From contig JAURZE010000025.1 of NCBI GenBank assembly GCA_030653545.1, forward strand, positions 1-64,000: a stretch of 64,000 nucleotides of DNA, in the 5' to 3' direction. The notes below the pieces were generated by a model, which saw nothing but the letters and a program-made list of their open reading frames with translations, was not told where the DNA came from and made no database searches. Both the position numbers and the translations under genes were made by a program. Position 1 is the first letter of the stretch. Each line of letters opens with the position of its first letter. This DNA is from Nitrospira sp. Lineage in GTDB: Bacteria > Nitrospirota > Nitrospiria > Nitrospirales > Nitrospiraceae. Below are positions 1-21,091 of this stretch, piece after piece.

Positions 1-141
1 GTGCCGGAGTTGGTTGCGGCGATCGACGAGTTCATTCGGCTCAATAACAAGAACCCCAAGCCGTTCGTGTGGACCAAAACCGTCGACGACATTCTGAAGA
101 AGATCAAGCATTGTAAAGCCATGATTGAGACACCACACTAG
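1..141 (+). CDS. IS630-type transposase, C-terminal end (partial)
   Basis: The reading frame is open from the window edge to a TAG at 139-141 and gives 46 residues. It contains FIRLNNKNPKPFVWTKT followed by a DDILKKI-like helix. This matches the usual C-terminus of IS630-family DDE transposases, which typically end with an NPKPFVWTKTADEI-like motif. The DDE catalytic residues would lie upstream of the window, so it cannot be told whether the element is intact. The stop codon overlaps the stop of the convergent gene at 138 (shared CTAG). No terminal inverted repeat is recognisable just downstream because that DNA is coding. Confidence in the family is high; activity is unknown. Confidence 0.8.
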   Translation: MPELVAAIDEFIRLNNKNPKPFVWTKTVDDILKKIKHCKAMIETPH

Positions 142-872
142 AGAGAGTTGTCCTGTTGCAACTTGGCCAGCCTGGAGATGATCTGGGTGAGTCGCTCGGC
201 CACTTTCGGCGGAGGCGCCCCAAAGTCCACCCCAAATTCAGAGCCCTTCACCCATTGCACAGTGGCGCGATCAACGAGCAACGGCTCCGGATCTCCCGGC
301 ACAAACATGTGCAGGGTGAGGACCATCCCGACAGAGACCGGTGCATTCCCCGTCATGTGGCTCCCGCTCAGCGATAGGTCATTGATGATTCCTTCACCGG
401 CAATCCCGGTCCCCTGGTACCGGACCGGCACCGATCGCTCGAACCGTTGATGCTTTCGCGTGACCGGCTCGGCCATGCGATCTTTCTTCTCTTTCGCCCC
501 CGCGGGCTGACCGAGCACGCCTCGAATGGTCGCGATTAATGCATCTACCTTCACTGGCTTGTGGAGGAATGCCGCTGCGCCATACTCCCTTGCCTTCTGT
601 TCCGCCACCTCGGGGGCTCGCGCCGTCACTACAATAACCGGAATGGCCGACAGGAGCCGGTTATTCTTCAGACGCTCGAGGACGACAAACCCATCTCCCC
701 CCGGCAGTCCAAGATCCAATAGAATGACGTCAGGCTGGTGTTTTCGGGCCTCGCTCAGGGCCTGAATCCCGTCAGCCGCCCATATCGGTTGATAGCGATG
801 AGTGAGGAGCATCGAGCTGAGTAACGTCCAGCTCTCGAGCGCATCCTCGACGATAAGAATTTTTGCTTCCAC
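138..872 (-). CDS. Response regulator with C-terminal PilZ domain
   Basis: This is a 244-residue cytoplasmic signalling protein. The N-terminal receiver domain begins with AKILIVEDA, has the phosphoacceptor Asp in VILLDLGLPG (about residue 53), a Thr in VIVVTARA and the conserved Lys in LHKPV. A linker of about 20 residues leads to a PilZ domain with an RKHQRFER arginine cluster and DLSLSG, the c-di-GMP-binding signature. It probably couples a histidine-kinase signal to c-di-GMP. A longer frame reaches a GTG at 926. The GTG at 872 is preferred because AGGAGGA sits 7 nt upstream and the receiver starts right there. No kinase gene is adjacent in this window. Confidence 0.88.
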   Translation of the reverse strand: MEAKILIVEDALESWTLLSSMLLTHRYQPIWAADGIQALSEARKHQPDVILLDLGLPGGDGFVVLERLKNNRLLSAIPVIVVTARAPEVAEQKAREYGAAAFLHKPVKVDALIATIRGVLGQPAGAKEKKDRMAEPVTRKHQRFERSVPVRYQGTGIAGEGIINDLSLSGSHMTGNAPVSVGMVLTLHMFVPGDPEPLLVDRATVQWVKGSEFGVDFGAPPPKVAERLTQIISRLAKLQQDNSL

Positions 873-992
873 GCGAGCTTCCTCCTGTGAGTCGTCTACT
901 CCGTCATAACGGCGCGTGGAGACCACACCTCACGCATTCGTGGCAGTATGATCCGTCGCGGCCTGTTGACTGCTGGATTGAACCGAGACGGA

Positions 993-1328
993 CTAGGAAA
1001 AGGGAGGCGGTCGAGAAGTCAGCGATACGACGGCAAAGTTATTGGGCGGTGTGAGCGGAACTGAATCGACGGCAGGCCGCTGATGCTTTGCGTGGCCCGA
1101 AAGTAGAATGAGATTTGCGACTTGGCCATCATGCAAGAGGAGTGCGGAGGTATCTTCAGAGGAGTTGACCTCCTCCCCATCCAACAAGGTCGGTTGATGC
1201 AGCGGCGAGGCGGAGGATTCTTCGCAGATGGCGATATCGAGCAAGTAGGGCACGACACAGAGGACGAGCAGGCACAATCCGAAGGACGTCAGCCTACCGC
1301 CTCGAGAAAATGATCGCCATCGCAGCAT
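993..1328 (-). CDS. Small secreted protein of unknown function
   Basis: A 111-residue frame with an N-terminal basic stretch and a hydrophobic segment (about residues 15-32, FGLCLLVLCVVPYLL) that could be a signal peptide or membrane anchor. The rest is polar and has no recognised domain. The start is ATG at 1328, but no good ribosome-binding site precedes it. It lies head to tail behind the RR-PilZ gene on the same strand. The opposite strand carries shorter open frames, so coding potential is not certain. Confidence 0.45.
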   Translation of the reverse strand: MLRWRSFSRGGRLTSFGLCLLVLCVVPYLLDIAICEESSASPLHQPTLLDGEEVNSSEDTSALLLHDGQVANLILLSGHAKHQRPAVDSVPLTPPNNFAVVSLTSRPPPFS

Positions 1329-1377
1329 TGGGGCATTGTAGCAGGCAGTGCCGACATAAGATAAGGTTCATTGGGTC

Positions 1378-1560
1378 CTAGCCGTAATACTTACTCACGA
1401 CCGAGTAGGCCGGTCGAAGTTCGACCTTGAGGCGGAGCAGGTAGGGCCGGTCACTCGCCGCCCGCACGATCTGAGAAAATCGAAGAGGGTGTACTGTACA
1501 ATGATACCTTCTTCGATCAGACCTCGATCAATGACAGGAATCCAGACGAGCTATTACTCC
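1378..1560 (-). pseudogene. Frameshifted gene remnant
   Basis: Two consecutive minus-strand frames look protein-like but are out of register. The first reads LVWIPVIDRGLIEEGIIVQ and continues YTLFDFLR. The second, starting around 1470, reads IVRAASDRPYLLRLKVEL and ends PAYSVVSKYYG before a TAG at 1378-1380. Joining them needs one indel near 1470. No start codon or upstream portion is present, so this appears to be the 3' end of a decayed gene. The family is not recognised. The upstream boundary is approximate. Confidence 0.4.
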
Positions 1561-1614
1561 GTAGGGGGTGATAAGATATTTAGATGATTGAATGGTTTAA
1601 ACAAGGAGGTCGTG

Positions 1615-1968
1615 ATGCAAGTGTTTGAACGTATCGGATTCATGGGACTGAGTATTGCGTTGGTGGGTGCACTCACTGGAATGCCGGTCTTTGCGGCAGA
1701 TGCCCCAATCGAGGACGGGTCGAAGATCGTGATCTCGTCTCCGAAGGACGGGGACAAGGTCAGCGACAGCTTCGAGCTGAAGTATGAATTGACCAAGGGG
1801 TCCGAGGCCGCCCATGCCCACGTGTATTTGGACAATCAATATCAGAAGGGTTTCCCCGGATCGTTCAAGGGGTTGACCAAAGGCAAGCACCAGATCACCG
1901 TAACCGGCGCGAACAAGGATCACAAACTTGTCTCGGCTACCCAGACCATCACCGTCGAAGTGCAGTAA
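1615..1968 (+). CDS. Periplasmic Ig-like small protein
   Basis: A 117-residue protein with a clear Sec signal peptide (hydrophobic core IGFMGLSIALVGALTG, cleavage after VFAA near residue 28). The mature part resembles small beta-sandwich proteins: ISSPKDGDKVSDSFELKYEL, a central HAHVYLD segment and a final strand TQTITVEVQ. This pattern is shared with DUF4399/DUF6130-type secreted proteins in which His residues sit in one strand; the assignment is by pattern only. The start at 1615 is chosen because AAGGAGG lies 5 nt upstream. A longer frame from 1588 has no ribosome site. A strong hairpin follows, so it is probably monocistronic. Confidence 0.82.
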   Translation: MQVFERIGFMGLSIALVGALTGMPVFAADAPIEDGSKIVISSPKDGDKVSDSFELKYELTKGSEAAHAHVYLDNQYQKGFPGSFKGLTKGKHQITVTGANKDHKLVSATQTITVEVQ

Positions 1969-9493: not shown

Positions 9494-9841
9494 TCAGGCG
9501 AGCGCGGGACGGCCAAGGGAGCGGAGGAAGCGGGTCCAGATGACCTGGTCGAGTTGCTGATGGGCGCGTATGGGAAGGCGGATAAATTCAACGCCGAACA
9601 CATAGCCCCTCACCCAGCGAATCTTAGCGAGATCAATCGCCAGAGAGGGTGACTGATCAGGCATCAAGACATTGAGCCGCACATAGCTGCCGGAGAGGAC
9701 GGTGCGATCGCACGAGATCGCGCAACCGGAGGCGGACAGGTCCGTCAACATGCCTTCGCCTACAAAAGGAGCCCCGCCAAATACGACGGGGTAGGTGACG
9801 GGAAAGCGATCGGTGGAGCGGGTCTGGAGAACGTGAGCCAT
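9494..9841 (-). CDS. PilZ-domain protein
   Basis: A stand-alone PilZ domain of about 115 residues. It has an N-terminal TRSTDRFPV arginine region, [10 protein letters not shown] (the D/NxSxxG c-di-GMP motif) and a closing strand [13 protein letters not shown]. It lacks any other domain, as in c-di-GMP adaptor proteins. The ATG at 9841 is preferred over GTG 9862 because an AGGGC stretch precedes it and the longer start has no ribosome site. It sits on the same strand just downstream of the secretin gene (90 nt away), so it may be co-transcribed with it. Confidence 0.85.
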
Positions 9842-9932
9842 GTGCTGCCCTGTGTGATCCACGACAGGGTAGCTGGTTGATGCATTGGAATACTACCCCT
9901 CAGAGGAGGGGCCAGGGAGCGCGCGCTGCCGG

Positions 9933-11492
9933 TTAGGGGGTCTTGTGAGCAGGCTCGACAGGGTTGGGCGCAGGTTGCTCGAGACGCTCGATGACGTCTT
10001 GCTTTAAACGCGTGGGTTCTTCGATCCGGTTATCGCGTTGAATGATCGTGAGTTCTTTCGCTTTCCGTTGGCTCAACTCGGCGATATCGCTTTCGTCGCG
10101 GATCAGGTGCGGGGTAAGGAAGACAAGGAGATTGAGTTTCTCGGTTTGCTTACTCTGAAACCGGAAGAGCCAACCTAGCCACGGAATGTCTCCGAAGAAC
10201 GGCACCTTGCGTTCACTGAGGGTGATGTTGTCTCGAACGAGTCCTCCCACCACGATGGTTTGGTTGTCTCTCGCGATGGTGGTGGTTTCCATCGAGCGCT
10301 TGGTGGTGGTAGGGCCGACCGGGATGGATGCCGTGCCTGACCCGATCGTCTGGGCCACGTTCTCGGCGATGGCGGTGATTTCCTGCTTGAGCTCCAGGCG
10401 GATCAGATCATCTTCCAGCACTTGCGGGGTCAATTCCAGTGTGACGCCGACGTCTTTCCGCTCGATGGTCACCAACGTACCCCCGGTGATGCCCTGAGCC
10501 TGTCCGGTCGGGAAAGGACGATTTTCACCGACGACGATTTTGGCCTTCTGGTTATCGGCGGCTAAGACCTGAGGCGTCGAAAGAATGTTTGTGTCGGTGA
10601 GGCTCATCAGGAGATTCAGAAACGCCCGGATGTTGACGGTGTTGAGAACGGTAACGGAGCCACCTGAGGCCACGCCGCTGATGGTTTGGGCGATGGCCGC
10701 CAGGTCTTCGGGGGCGCGATTGAGCCCTGCGATCCCTTGCACAGCACCTGATTTGCCGGCGCCGAGGACCTGCAAGGGATCGGTCCCGATCTGCCGGAGA
10801 CGATCGACCTGCACTTCCAGGATTACGGCCTCAACAAAGACCTGTTTCCTGCGGGTGTCCAAATCGCGAATGACCGATTGGATCCGGCTATAGGCCGATT
10901 TTGTGGCACTGACTACGATGGAATTGGTGGCTTTGTCGGCGAATACTTGCACGGGAGCTTCGAATTCTGTCAGGGGACGCAGGGGTGGCCTGGCACCGGG
11001 GGCTGTTTGCGCGACCGTTTGGGAGCGAGCGACGAGGTTGGTCAGGACCGCCGCCAGGTCGGTCGCATTCGCATGTTTGAGTTTGTACACATACACACCC
11101 CGTTCAGGAGGGAGTTCTCCCATCGGCACAATCTGATAGACGCTGCCTTTGGGAACGACGGCAATCCGGCTGACTTCCAGTGCGGCCACAAACATGCTGT
11201 AGGCCTGGTCCGGCGTGACTTTGGTGGGCGAGAACACGGAGATCTTTCCGCCCAGCTTCTTGATCGCCTCATCGAGGACGAAATTCTTGCCGGTCAATTC
11301 ACTGATGAAGCGAACAAATACAGGAATCTCGACTTCGTTGAAGTCGAGGGTGATTTTATTGGAAGCAGACGCGGCGGTTTCCGCATGGCTTACCGGGGGA
11401 AGCGGCCAAGCAGAGAGGACCACTGCCACCACAAGCCAAGCATATTTTGAGGGAATGCGCCGGCGCGCATTCGGCAATCGGTCGGTCAGCAC
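9933..11492 (-). CDS. gspD: GspD-like secretin, orphan
   Basis: A 519-residue secretin of the type II secretion/type IV pilus family. A signal peptide (AWLVVAVVLSAWPLPPVSHA) precedes an N0-like domain (ITLDFNEVEIPVFVRFISEL, about residues 48-115). An N1-like repeat (VYVYKLKHANATDLAAVL) is interrupted by a Pro/Ala-rich insert. The secretin core spans about residues 220-460, with the signature VPFFGDIPWLGWLF and a final strand LNLLVFLTPHLI. It forms an outer-membrane ring. The tail of about 50 residues is charged and Pro-rich. GspD proteins are often 600-700 residues, so this one has fewer N-domains. No other secretion or pilus gene lies nearby, which is unusual. Confidence 0.88.
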   Translation of the reverse strand: MLTDRLPNARRRIPSKYAWLVVAVVLSAWPLPPVSHAETAASASNKITLDFNEVEIPVFVRFISELTGKNFVLDEAIKKLGGKISVFSPTKVTPDQAYSMFVAALEVSRIAVVPKGSVYQIVPMGELPPERGVYVYKLKHANATDLAAVLTNLVARSQTVAQTAPGARPPLRPLTEFEAPVQVFADKATNSIVVSATKSAYSRIQSVIRDLDTRRKQVFVEAVILEVQVDRLRQIGTDPLQVLGAGKSGAVQGIAGLNRAPEDLAAIAQTISGVASGGSVTVLNTVNIRAFLNLLMSLTDTNILSTPQVLAADNQKAKIVVGENRPFPTGQAQGITGGTLVTIERKDVGVTLELTPQVLEDDLIRLELKQEITAIAENVAQTIGSGTASIPVGPTTTKRSMETTTIARDNQTIVVGGLVRDNITLSERKVPFFGDIPWLGWLFRFQSKQTEKLNLLVFLTPHLIRDESDIAELSQRKAKELTIIQRDNRIEEPTRLKQDVIERLEQPAPNPVEPAHKTP

Positions 11493-16159: not shown

Positions 16160-19100
16160 GTGCGTGCTGATAAGAAAACTCCACTCAAAGCCGACAAGAA
16201 GATTGCGTCCCGTAGTCACAAGCGGGGCGTGATCGGGTATAGCAAGAAGTCCGCTCTTCTCGAAGACGCCATTACCCAAATGAACGCGGGGAAGTATGGG
16301 CGGTCGTCAGCCGCGCTGAAAGAATTGCTGGCGCTCGATCCGGCGAATATGGAGGCGCGCCGGCTGTTCGCCACGCTTCATCTTCGATTGGGGAGCCTGC
16401 TCCCGGCGAGGCAGGCCTTCGAATCACTGGCGAACGAGGCGCTTGAACGGCAAGACTACTGGCTTGCTGAATCGTTACTCCGCGAGTATCTCGCAGCCGG
16501 TCCCCGGTGTGTGCCATTCATTGAAAAACTGGGGTCGGTATACCAGGAAAAGGGAGATGCGCTCGCCGCGTCCGAAGAGTTTGCCAAGGCCATCGACATT
16601 CTTATCGAAGATCCGGACCCTGACCGTCCTGCCTTACCTACTGAGCTGTATGCCAAGATTCGGGAGCTAGCCCCGGCTAGTTCTCCTGCATTCCGTCTCG
16701 CATCACTCTTCGACGCGCAGACAGGAGAGTTAATTGCTCGCGCGGCGGTTGCGCCGAGCTCGAATCCTGAGGAGGTGCTAGCCCCGCCTGTGACGATGGA
16801 ACCATCGGAGTCCACAACATCGAATCAATCGACCGCGATGTCTGATCCGGTTTCCGGCGTCATGCCGTGGGATGATCTCCCAGCGGGTACTTCGGTATTG
16901 CCAGCCCAGAGCTTCCAGCCTGAGAGCCCAGATCAGGTCGCTTCATCGACAGCTGAGTTGCCCGCAGCATCGGAGGCTTCTTCACTTGCGGACGAGTCAT
17001 TCGCTCTGCGGGACGGTTTCATTGATGAGGTTCCGGCAGAGCTGAGCGTCAGTCCATCTTCCCAAGGTTCGAGCAGTGACAGTTCAGCCCCGATTGCCCA
17101 TCAAGGCGCAGCGTCCACCGGATTTTCGCGCACGCATGAGGAGATGCCTGCTACGACTACTGCGTCGCCGGGTTCGGAGTGGGGCGCGGCTTCTCTCCCG
17201 ATATCGCAAGCTTCATGGAACACGGATTCGAATGAGGCAACGAGCGTGGCTGATGCGGTGCAGCCTCCTCAATCGGATGTGTCCATTACGTTGCCGAGTC
17301 CTACCTCGGATGCTTTTCTCGCTCCTCTGCCCTGGGAGCAGGTTCAGGAAGCCACGGTTGCGATTTCTCAACCGGACGGGGAATCCCTCTCGGCGGGTTT
17401 CCAGGGGGTAGAGTCCGCCTCCTCGGTCTCACCGGAAATCGCACCAATCGAGGTCGGGTCTTCTGATGAGTCAGGGGAGAAGCAAAAAGAAGAGTCTTCA
17501 CTACTGGCTGGGACGGGGACAACCCTCTCGTTAGCCACAACAGAAGAATGCTCACCGGATGTGGCTTGGTCGGCACCGGATGTGGTGGCTACTGAGCCGT
17601 CAAGTTCTTACTCGCCTTCACCAGAGCCATCGCAGACGATTTCTGCCTCGGGGGAACCGCAGTCAGATGTGCTGGCTGAATCTGTGCCGTTGCCCATGCC
17701 ATGGGAACAGATACAGGAATCGCCGGTCAGTATTGAGGGGTTCACTCAGGAGTCCATCGCTCTGGCCGGAACGACACCGGATCCACTCTCGACTCAACTC
17801 CAGGAAGCTGTTCCTCCTGTAGTCGGCGATCAGGTTATATCTGCGGCTATCGCGAGTTCTCCCGAGCCTGGCGGTCTGGAGTCGCGCGACGCGTCCTTCC
17901 TGCTGGACGATGTGCGGTCTTCGCCGGAGAGTCTCGCTGCTTACGAGCCGAGCCCGAAGACGAAGATCGGTGAGTTTTCGTGGGCCTCAATTTTCAATAG
18001 TGCTTGGAAGTTTGGCTCGTCGTCTCCGGCCCCGCACGATTCCCTCCAGCATTCTTCGCCGGTTGAACCGCCTGAGGTTGCAGAATCGGCCATATCCCAA
18101 GAGGCCGTGGGTACTCCTGTCCTGCACGAGGAACAGACGCCAGCTGTCTCCCCGGGTGCGATGTCGGAATCGATGCCGTTGTCTGGGGATCAGATTCAGG
18201 ATGCGCCGACTACGATCCCGTTCACTGATAGTGCCCTGAGCACATCAGGGGAGTTTCTGGAGGAGTGTACTGTTGCGGCCGTCGAGCTTCCCGAAGAAGT
18301 CGTCGCTCTGGAAGTGCCAGCGGTGGTTCCGGTCATTCAGGATGAACAAGCGGATGTGGTCGCCTCCGAGGAGACGTCAGAAGTAATGCCAGCGTCTGCC
18401 AGCTTGGCAGAGCCGGCGGTCTCGTCCATGCCTTGGGATCAGGCCGAGGATACACCTGCACCGATTTCATCCGTTGACAGTGCCATGGGTTTAGCCGTGG
18501 AGCCGCTGGTGGAGTCACCAGCGATGCCGGTTGAGTCCATTAGCATGCTTGACGACGCAGCCGTTTACGATGCTCCGCAAGTCGTGCCTCCAGTCGAAGC
18601 GCCAGCAGTATCGACAGCTGTTGTGATCGAGGAATCTCGGTCTCTCGAGGTTGTTCAAGTTGAGTCGGCAGAGGTTGCGTTTCGCTTCAAGGATTCCAAT
18701 CGCGCCGGAGCGGAGCCGACGGCAATCAGTGAGAGTCTCCAGGCACAACCTCAGGCGTTACCAGATGAAAAGCTGATCGACTCACAACCAGCTGCGAGTT
18801 CGTCACTGGCCGATGACCGTTTACCGGTTCATTCCGAGGAGTTTCGAATCGTTTCACCAGCAGAACCTTCGCCTGTCGTCCAGGAGTTGGTCAAGCCGGA
18901 CGCGCCGGTTTCGAGTGCAGCGCCGGCTCTTGCACCCGCGCCCTCTCCGGAATCGGTTCCGCCAGTGTTGCCGCATGAGTTGTTACCGGTACTCCAGACG
19001 TTGGTTGACCAACTGTCAGTGGTGACTAAAACCATTCCCGCGATCTCTGCAGAGACGAAATCCTCTGAGGTTGTCTCGCGCGACCAGGAGGTTGTTCCAG

Positions 19101-21091
19101 AGGCCGCATCCTTACGAGAGCCATCAAAGGCGCCAAGTTCAGCGGAGCTTGCGGCGAATCCCTCCTCAGCGCAGATGCCTCCGACTGAAGAGGGCCCCCC
19201 GTCGCAGTGGAAGACCGGCGATGTGGCGGTTCACACTCATCGCCCTTCAGCCAAGAAGCGAAAACCTTCGATCGAGCCAGCCTCCGAGGCCCCGGCTGTC
19301 ATACCTCCAGCTGACGAATCACCGGCAGTCCCCGCTGATTCGATCCCCCATCTGGCGTCGACGGTCGTTGAGACGGCGGTGCCGGCTACTCCAGCCGTTC
19401 AGGAAAAAGAGGAGTGGGTCAGAACCGGTGAGGCCATTCGGTTCATCGATCCGGTTGTCGCCGAGCCCGTCCATCTGATGCCGCCCCCTCCTTCTGCGTC
19501 GCACGACGAATGGCCGACGGTCTCTGTTCCGTCTACGGCTGCGTCGGCCGTCGATGTGCTCTTCCAGTCATCGGGCCGTCATACGCGAACCGAGGCGACT
19601 GAGCGAACAGCTGCTCTTAAGCCACGTCCACGGTTGAGCGCGAAGCTGGCACGCGTTCGTATTGGCCTGTCGGTGTTCATCGGTTCCTGCTTCTCGACGA
19701 CGCGTGCGCTCGTGACGTCGATAGTAGGTCTGGCGGTATTGTCTGTGGCGATCGTGACAATGGCCATTGGGGTCGTGGGTCTGACCTGGTTGGTGATGGA
19801 AGAAAAACCGAGCCCGGCATTTCAAAGTCTGACGACGTCACCTCAACGCGCCATGATGGATTCCGGCAAAAACGGATACCTGCTCTTGCTCGGATTCGAG
19901 GCGGATGCCACGGCGGATCCGGTTCAGGTAGGGTACGAGCGAAAACCGGATGTCAAGGATGTAGGGATGGCCGCGGTTTGCCATGGTGAAAATGAGGGCA
20001 TGGCAGGAGCTAATCAGAAAAACGCGTCTGCGAGTGTGGCGCAGGGTTGGTACAGGTCGGCAGATCCAGCCGGGCAGTTCATGGTCCAATCGGACAGCCT
20101 GAAAGGCTGGACGAGTCAGGCGACGGTGTCCCTCGGCCGTTACCGGCAATGGCTCAAGATGCCGTTTGAGGATTGGGGGCATGGTCAGGCGGTGACACCG
20201 CCCTGTGCGGCGATCCTCTTTGCGCATCGACTGCATGTGGCGGAAGGTTTTAGCCAAGGGGCTGTTCCCGAGGCTGGAGTTGAGCGGCTGGAAGGTGACA
20301 TGGAAGCCTGGCGGACCACGCTCAGCCAGGCGAAGACCCTTCCGGTCAAGATGATGGCGCTCCAGGCGATCAACGATGATATTGCGGTTGCCTCAGGGCT
20401 GCTGGTCAAGCCGGACTTCGACGGCAAGGCGCTTCCTCGGATCACGAAGATGCTTCGCCCGCTCGATCCGGTCGAGTCGTCGATGCGATGGCCGATGCAG
20501 AGTCAGTTGGTTTTGGCGACCAAGTCGTACGGGGCACAACTCGATGCTGACCGGGGTGAGGACGTGCCGTTCCATGTCAGCGTGGCCAGTATGCTTCCGC
20601 TGCCGAAGCAAAGACGATTCAACGACTACGCTGAATACTACGAATCGTCATATAAGGCTGCCGGAGAAGGTCGGTATGGCGCGATGCCAAAGCGCTCCAC
20701 GTATATCAAACATCCGGCGACCAGCGTCATGGACTATGTAACAAATCCGATTGAAAACATCATCGGCATTGATCCGCTTCCGGCATGGGATCACTACAAT
20801 GGCTTGGTTGTCGACACCGATGCGCGTCTCCGTCTGGCGAGTCTGCAAGCCTGGCTACGACGCGGTCCGCAGGATGCCGATCTGCTTGCGCGGATCGCGA
20901 AAGCCGGTCAACGCTTTTATGATCCCTATACGGGCCTTCCGATGTTGGTCAATCTCAAGAGAGGGGTCATGTATAGTGTGGGCCACGATGGTAAGGACCA
21001 AGACGCAGACCCACAGCAGGACGTTGTCGTGTCCATCCCAATCAATCAACCTGCGACAGCTACTGCCAAGCCTGTTCCGAAGTCGAAGTAA
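16160..21091 (+). CDS. Very large TPR / low-complexity / single-TM envelope protein
   Basis: A 1643-residue protein starting at GTG 16160 (weak ribosome site). Residues about 30-160 form TPR-like helices (ALKELLALDPANMEARRLFA and following). Residues about 190-1150 are Ser/Pro/Glu/Val-rich, acidic and probably disordered, with a recurring PWEQxQE-like motif near residues 233, 388, 512, 671 and 756. A basic stretch precedes one transmembrane helix at about 1187-1213. The C-terminal 430 residues are predicted outside the membrane and end with YDPYTGLPMLVNLKRGVMYS followed by GHDGKD, which resembles the C-terminal segment of GspG-like pseudopilins. This layout (cytoplasmic TPR, long linker, outside domain) suggests a membrane-spanning scaffold; no family is recognised for the whole. 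Confidence 0.82.
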   Translation: MRADKKTPLKADKKIASRSHKRGVIGYSKKSALLEDAITQMNAGKYGRSSAALKELLALDPANMEARRLFATLHLRLGSLLPARQAFESLANEALERQDYWLAESLLREYLAAGPRCVPFIEKLGSVYQEKGDALAASEEFAKAIDILIEDPDPDRPALPTELYAKIRELAPASSPAFRLASLFDAQTGELIARAAVAPSSNPEEVLAPPVTMEPSESTTSNQSTAMSDPVSGVMPWDDLPAGTSVLPAQSFQPESPDQVASSTAELPAASEASSLADESFALRDGFIDEVPAELSVSPSSQGSSSDSSAPIAHQGAASTGFSRTHEEMPATTTASPGSEWGAASLPISQASWNTDSNEATSVADAVQPPQSDVSITLPSPTSDAFLAPLPWEQVQEATVAISQPDGESLSAGFQGVESASSVSPEIAPIEVGSSDESGEKQKEESSLLAGTGTTLSLATTEECSPDVAWSAPDVVATEPSSSYSPSPEPSQTISASGEPQSDVLAESVPLPMPWEQIQESPVSIEGFTQESIALAGTTPDPLSTQLQEAVPPVVGDQVISAAIASSPEPGGLESRDASFLLDDVRSSPESLAAYEPSPKTKIGEFSWASIFNSAWKFGSSSPAPHDSLQHSSPVEPPEVAESAISQEAVGTPVLHEEQTPAVSPGAMSESMPLSGDQIQDAPTTIPFTDSALSTSGEFLEECTVAAVELPEEVVALEVPAVVPVIQDEQADVVASEETSEVMPASASLAEPAVSSMPWDQAEDTPAPISSVDSAMGLAVEPLVESPAMPVESISMLDDAAVYDAPQVVPPVEAPAVSTAVVIEESRSLEVVQVESAEVAFRFKDSNRAGAEPTAISESLQAQPQALPDEKLIDSQPAASSSLADDRLPVHSEEFRIVSPAEPSPVVQELVKPDAPVSSAAPALAPAPSPESVPPVLPHELLPVLQTLVDQLSVVTKTIPAISAETKSSEVVSRDQEVVPEAASLREPSKAPSSAELAANPSSAQMPPTEEGPPSQWKTGDVAVHTHRPSAKKRKPSIEPASEAPAVIPPADESPAVPADSIPHLASTVVETAVPATPAVQEKEEWVRTGEAIRFIDPVVAEPVHLMPPPPSASHDEWPTVSVPSTAASAVDVLFQSSGRHTRTEATERTAALKPRPRLSAKLARVRIGLSVFIGSCFSTTRALVTSIVGLAVLSVAIVTMAIGVVGLTWLVMEEKPSPAFQSLTTSPQRAMMDSGKNGYLLLLGFEADATADPVQVGYERKPDVKDVGMAAVCHGENEGMAGANQKNASASVAQGWYRSADPAGQFMVQSDSLKGWTSQATVSLGRYRQWLKMPFEDWGHGQAVTPPCAAILFAHRLHVAEGFSQGAVPEAGVERLEGDMEAWRTTLSQAKTLPVKMMALQAINDDIAVASGLLVKPDFDGKALPRITKMLRPLDPVESSMRWPMQSQLVLATKSYGAQLDADRGEDVPFHVSVASMLPLPKQRRFNDYAEYYESSYKAAGEGRYGAMPKRSTYIKHPATSVMDYVTNPIENIIGIDPLPAWDHYNGLVVDTDARLRLASLQAWLRRGPQDADLLARIAKAGQRFYDPYTGLPMLVNLKRGVMYSVGHDGKDQDADPQQDVVVSIPINQPATATAKPVPKSK

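Follow-up and report, generated by a model that had tools for sequence, protein, structure and literature searches.

A TPR protein with a long acidic arm and a repeated tryptophan motif, a candidate envelope scaffold of Nitrospiraceae

Introduction

What role might be played by a 1,643-residue envelope protein that carries a short motif repeated along an acidic region? The question is raised by one gene in a 64,000-nucleotide stretch of DNA (the window) from a Nitrospira genome of 3.94 Mb. Nitrospira are major nitrite oxidizers and include the comammox bacteria, and to our knowledge little is known about the organization of their envelope. A literature search found no paper on this protein in Nitrospira. 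An earlier note, made from the sequence of the window, had proposed that the protein is a scaffold that runs from the cytoplasm to the periplasm and that the motif is a docking site. Here, we examine the domains of the protein, the conservation of its motif, its distribution across the family Nitrospiraceae, and its genomic neighborhood, and we weigh the scaffold proposal against four other explanations.

Results

Domain layout

The open reading frame has 1,643 codons and no internal stops, and its G+C content (58.8%) is close to that of the window (58.9%). The GTG start codon is supported by the sequence VRxxKK, which nearly all of the 31 full-length orthologues have at this position, shortly (a few codons) past an upstream stop. 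From the N terminus to the C terminus, the protein comprises a tetratricopeptide repeat (TPR) superhelix, an acidic arm, one transmembrane segment, and a helical ectodomain of 430 residues (Table 1). This is the cytoplasm-to-periplasm order that the earlier note described, and it is supported by the sequence, AlphaFold2 (AF2) models, the charge pattern, and conserved cysteines in the ectodomain. The topology would be N-in/C-out. The scaffold function, however, is something that we only infer.

Table 1. Features of the long-form protein and the neighboring secretin gene (coordinates are those of the window)
Feature	Coordinates	Strand	Residues	Sequence	Basis or remark
Whole open reading frame, long form	16160..21091	+	1643 in total		Single-pass envelope protein, putatively N-in/C-out
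TPR superhelix (helices)	16244..16702	+	29-181		Pfam, AF2, PDB matches, conservation
Acidic arm, rich in S/A/P/E/V	16727..19519	+	about 190-1120		Composition, AF2 disorder
Motif copy 1	16856..16900	+	233-247 (W237)	GVMPWDDLPAGTSVL	
Motif copy 2	17321..17365	+	388-402 (W392)	APLPWEQVQEATVAI	
Motif copy 3	17690..17734	+	511-525 (W515)	LPMPWEQIQESPVSI	
Second conserved island	17975..18016	+	606-619	FSWASIFNSAWKFG	Predicted short helix, 608-619
Degenerate motif copy, no W	18167..18217	+	670-686	ESMPLSGDQIQDAPTTI	Sequence inspection
Motif copy 4 (fifth loose copy)	18422..18466	+	755-769 (W759)	SSMPWDQAEDTPAPI	
Third, weaker island	19409..19444	+	1084-1095	EEWVRTGEAIRF	
Transmembrane segment, predicted	19706..19798	+	1183-1213		Single hydrophobic stretch
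Putative periplasmic ectodomain, ends DPYTGLPM...YSVGHDGKD	19799..21088	+	1214-1643		Model, cysteine conservation
GspD-type secretin, divergent neighbor	9933..11492	-	519 in total		

The N-terminal region matched TPR models from Pfam at residues 37-158, at weak scores that fall below the gathering thresholds. An AF2 model of residues 1-640, built from 23 orthologues, gave a confident superhelix of nine helices (pLDDT of about 95) at residues 29-181. It matched designed TPRs, MamA, and PilF in PDB, and this region is predicted to have a TPR fold. This is the most conserved part of the protein (86% mean column identity across 13 orthologues), and it includes an invariant cysteine, Cys117.

The same genome encodes a 666-residue TPR protein (L003:952-2952; G000:C22:342 kb) that is homologous to this TPR segment. 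Residues 3-169 of that paralogue match the profile of SgmX, a regulator of type IV pili in Myxococcus, at 135 bits, which is below the curated cutoff. However, the part of the paralogue that matches SgmX is not the part that is homologous to our protein, and we know of no comparable arm, transmembrane segment, or ectodomain in SgmX. We treat this link as a lead only.

The arm, which the earlier note had put at about 950 acidic, low-complexity residues, measures about 930 residues, with 15.4% D+E, 3.4% K+R, and a net charge of about -111. The segment of it that lies within the model of residues 1-640 was disordered, and the arm is predicted to be disordered and probably lies on the cytoplasmic side of the membrane. 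The only modeled arm segment that AF2 predicted as a helix of at least four residues is the second conserved island, FSWxSxFxxAWKFG, which is kept in most orthologues. As for the claim of a single transmembrane segment, we found one hydrophobic stretch, most likely residues 1183-1213. It is preceded by a basic juxtamembrane stretch that contains the conserved sequence CFSTTRA.

A conserved motif in an otherwise divergent arm

The earlier note had counted five loose copies of a PWEQ motif. Four of these carry the tryptophan; the fifth is degenerate and lacks it. A peptide that represents the motif is APMPWDQVQESVISI. We considered whether the motif might be a chance similarity, given that the arm is of low complexity and that copy 1 in our protein fits the motif loosely. 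When we scored the pattern [MLIV][PSA]W[DE][QDEH] in the arms of 65 non-identical orthologues, at least one motif was present in 64 of them, and there were 136 copies in all, versus 1.44 expected from the same arms after shuffling. Furthermore, the best consensus, APMPWDQVQES(V/T)(I/V)SI, extends over about 15 residues and is common to several genera. This excess of copies and this conserved consensus refute a chance origin, to which we give next to no credence. Absence from the orthologues was what the earlier note named as evidence for chance; instead, the motif persists, and the arm sequence around its copies cannot be aligned among orthologues.

The motif also seems to be specific to this protein. 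The core MPW[DE][QDEH] has no occurrences outside the arm, and a search of the source genome with a DNA pattern (up to 2 mismatches) found the motif in this gene only. The number of copies per protein varies from 1 to 6. In one species (L110 and L054), a 71-residue unit that bears the motif was recently duplicated in tandem, with the first two units being 94% identical in DNA, which indicates that the arm acquires motif copies by tandem duplication. The conservation of the motif within an otherwise unconserved arm, together with its variable copy number, fits a repeated docking site, and this is probably its role.

The one arm that lacks a strict match to the motif is from L114 (contig CAADGK010000052.1), which is titled Nitrosospira. 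Both this contig and L104, which is titled Anaerolineales, contain a Nitrospira-type gene with Nitrospira-type neighbors, and they are probably misbinned or misnamed.

If the motif is a docking site, its ligand might be the TPR domain of the same protein. Short peptides are known to bind in TPR grooves, no other part of the protein is as conserved as this domain, and the pattern searches found the motif nowhere else in the genome. Contacts between head and arm would then assemble the protein into multivalent clusters at the membrane or into a condensate, and there is a precedent in PodJ, which forms condensates in vitro (PMC8980812). On the other hand, the AF2 model of residues 1-640 left the three W-bearing copies that it covers unordered, with low confidence, and did not dock the motif onto the TPR domain; given the shallow alignment, this counts only weakly against self-assembly. 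We consider self-assembly rather unlikely, and the same goes for its corollary that motif copy number would set the valency.

An ectodomain without known relatives in protein family databases

The earlier note's outside domain of 430 residues can be delimited to the segment that follows the transmembrane stretch, and it is probably periplasmic. We searched the domain with HMMs and modeled its structure, both of which that note had suggested. Pfam and NCBIfam gave no family, and we found no curated family name for proteins that consist of a transmembrane segment plus this ectodomain. The model is mostly helical (pTM 0.80, mean pLDDT 75), and Foldseek found no match to its fold in PDB at E ≤ 0.001; sequence searches of PDB, started either from the ectodomain or from its profile, also found no relative. 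Two cysteines, Cys1274 and Cys1349, are present in all 31 of 31 orthologues, and four aligned paralogues of the short form (described below) have no cysteine at these positions. This pattern suggests a periplasmic disulfide between Cys1274 and Cys1349.

The end of the domain had been described as pseudopilin-like. By eye, it does share a short and superficial ending, DP..G......YS.G.DG, with the major pseudopilin GspG. However, there was no match to HMMs for pilins or pseudopilins, neither blastp nor hhalign showed any similarity to the GspG that this genome encodes, and inspection of the sequence revealed no prepilin peptidase motif at the transmembrane segment. We therefore rejected this reading.

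Some Nitrospirota proteins have the ectodomain alone on its own transmembrane segment, in about 470-540 residues. These short forms are homologous to the long form across the entire ectodomain, at 32-34% identity, but they lack the TPR domain, the arm, the motif, and the cysteine pair at the long-form positions. In a tree of ectodomains, long and short forms are divided by a branch with 100/100 support. Outside of Nitrospiraceae, our sample of the phylum yielded one match to the ectodomain, a full-length standalone relative from another family (G099; hhalign probability 97.6, E = 3.5e-12, 371 columns). No relatives of the ectodomain were found on plasmids. The long form may thus have arisen when a TPR-plus-arm region was joined to an older protein with a transmembrane segment and an ectodomain, with a root that is not firmly placed.

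In several genera, the short paralogue adjoins, in divergent orientation, genes that on reading their sequences resemble those for a BtuF-like ABC importer, for a TonB-type receptor, and for cobyrinate synthase. Examples are L067:6006-7607 (G000:C22:380 kb) in the source genome and L066, L177, and L179.

Distribution and the type IV pilus

The earlier note had also suggested a phylogenetic profile of co-occurring genes. Among 117 Nitrospiraceae genomes with completeness of at least 90%, the ectodomain is present in 109. Judging by the lengths of the open frames, about 102 of the 117 genomes have the long form and seven have the short form alone (here about 450-540 residues). The type IV pilus secretin PilQ tracks the ectodomain better than GspC or FliF does: both PilQ and the ectodomain are present in 107 genomes, both are absent from 6, and the genomes are discordant in two cases each way. 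In other words, PilQ is missing from 6 of the 8 genomes without the ectodomain and from just 2 of the 109 genomes with it (P = 2.4e-7, Fisher's exact test, phylogeny ignored). The genomes that lost both are mostly reduced and include strongly reduced ones of 1.7-2.0 Mb. If only genomes of at least 2.2 Mb are considered, the association has P = 0.006, again with phylogeny ignored. Co-loss is confounded by genome reduction, and we regard it as a lead.

Two other observations bear on the link to pili. The gene is located outside any pilus operon. Also, sister families that do not contain this protein have secretin matches, either PilQ or another type, so pili may not need it. Flagella are not favored as the partner, as FliF is absent from 19 genomes that have the ectodomain. 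Our guess, from the co-loss with PilQ, is that the machinery of the type IVa pilus is the likeliest client.

Neighboring genes

Upstream, in divergent orientation, is a GspD-type secretin gene. This pairing was detected in 78 of 110 loci, a set that includes duplicate or truncated loci. Elsewhere in the source genome, an operon for type II secretion (L175; G000:C22:194000-208000) encodes GspC, GspE, GspG, GspH/I/J-like proteins, and a PilM/GspL-like protein, and no GspD was seen in it. We found three secretins in this genome: one beside the gene under study, one in the PilMNOPQ cluster, and one in a third cluster. Because the operon has no GspD and the secretins are all elsewhere, the secretin in the window is probably the missing GspD.

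The protein might therefore be an accessory or assembly factor of type II secretion that serves the adjacent GspD, much as GspAB or ExeAB do; the interaction of ExeAB with the secretin ExeD spans the periplasm (PMC4098917). However, a good match to GspC is missing from about 38 of the genomes that carry the ectodomain. These include nearly all of the genus that contains N. defluvii (g12), and a GspD orthologue is absent from the two genomes of that genus that we checked (G113 and G164). N. defluvii itself (G113) has kept the long protein, and the neighboring type of GspD is gone. Conversely, another genome (G254) has the window's type of GspD, yet it has only the short form. Type II secretion is dispensable for retention of the protein, so we reject a strict coupling and consider a role as its accessory factor improbable.

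Alternatively, the protein might act as a sensor in the envelope, with the arm relaying signals from the ectodomain to the products of adjacent HDOD/GGDEF or ECF sigma factor genes. HDOD, GGDEF, and ECF sigma factor genes occur in the window and lie near the gene in 21-24 of the 110 loci, including those of the N. defluvii clade. However, such neighbors were not detected in about 80% of the loci, and no signaling domain was found in the protein. We consider a sensor very improbable.

The genes downstream encode an AIM24-like protein, an M48 peptidase, and a phosphoesterase. A gene for a PilZ-domain protein (9494-9862) adjoins the secretin gene. Also, at about 30-45 kb of the window, there is a run of open reading frames that are ketosynthase-, dehydratase-, acyltransferase-, and exporter-like; by eye, it looks like an aryl-polyene-type lipid cluster.

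Discussion

With middling confidence, we propose that the protein is an envelope scaffold of Nitrospiraceae, with its N terminus inside and its C terminus outside, that works in the manner of FimV/HubP or PodJ; clients would dock on the motif, and our guess for the likeliest client is the type IVa pilus machinery. Everything N-terminal of the single membrane helix, TPR domain and acidic arm alike, would lie in the cytoplasm, and this helix would anchor the protein in the inner membrane. The 430-residue helical domain, which is probably disulfide bonded, would lie in the periplasm and would fix the assembly to a periplasmic structure. The disordered arm would act as a tether that bears the motif one to six times and the amphipathic FSWxSxFxxAWKFG element once. 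These sites would most likely dock a cytoplasmic client, and the number of motif copies may set the affinity or avidity for it.

Two families of proteins are natural comparisons, and both are thought to act as membrane-tethered hubs (PMC12918733 for FimV/HubP; PMC8980812 for PodJ). FimV/HubP proteins are polar landmarks that cross the membrane once. They join a periplasmic domain to a cytoplasmic TPR region and to a long cytoplasmic stretch that is acidic and unstructured, and in HubP this stretch contains imperfect acidic repeats (PMC12918733). Our protein also has an extended acidic arm (15.4% D+E versus 3.4% K+R), but the arrangement is reversed: the TPR domain is N-terminal, on the opposite side of the arm from the C-terminal cytoplasmic TPR region (the FimV domain) of FimV/HubP, and the periplasmic domain is C-terminal. 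Also, its repeat is a short motif with a tryptophan instead of an acidic repeat block. The protein had no LysM or FimV match, and none of seven genomes of the family had a match to the FimV_core profile above the cutoff.

PodJ, a polar scaffold from Caulobacter, is N-in/C-out, with a cytoplasmic interaction domain, a disordered region that binds PleC, a transmembrane segment, and a periplasmic domain (PMC8980812). The sequence of our protein predicts a similar arrangement with a disordered cytoplasmic region. However, PodJ has cytoplasmic coiled coils and, in the periplasm, a TPR region and a peptidoglycan-binding domain. In our protein, the TPR domain would be cytoplasmic, and the periplasmic domain belongs to an unrelated helical family with no match in Pfam; neither Pfam nor NCBIfam identified a periplasmic TPR or peptidoglycan-binding domain. 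With no LysM, with its TPR domain at the other end, and with no known peptidoglycan-binding domain, the protein belongs to neither FimV/HubP nor PodJ.

More speculatively, the protein may represent an undescribed class of envelope or pole organizers that arose within Nitrospiraceae, separately from FimV/HubP and PodJ. Such an organizer would couple a TPR domain and a disordered arm to a periplasmic domain specific to the family, and a tunable number of likewise family-specific docking motifs would recruit the pilus or another polar machine. If so, FimV/HubP and PodJ would be joined by a third, independent way of building a membrane-tethered disordered hub. In any case, a protein that is kept in almost all Nitrospira, with a repeated motif that is precisely conserved, offers a directly testable handle.
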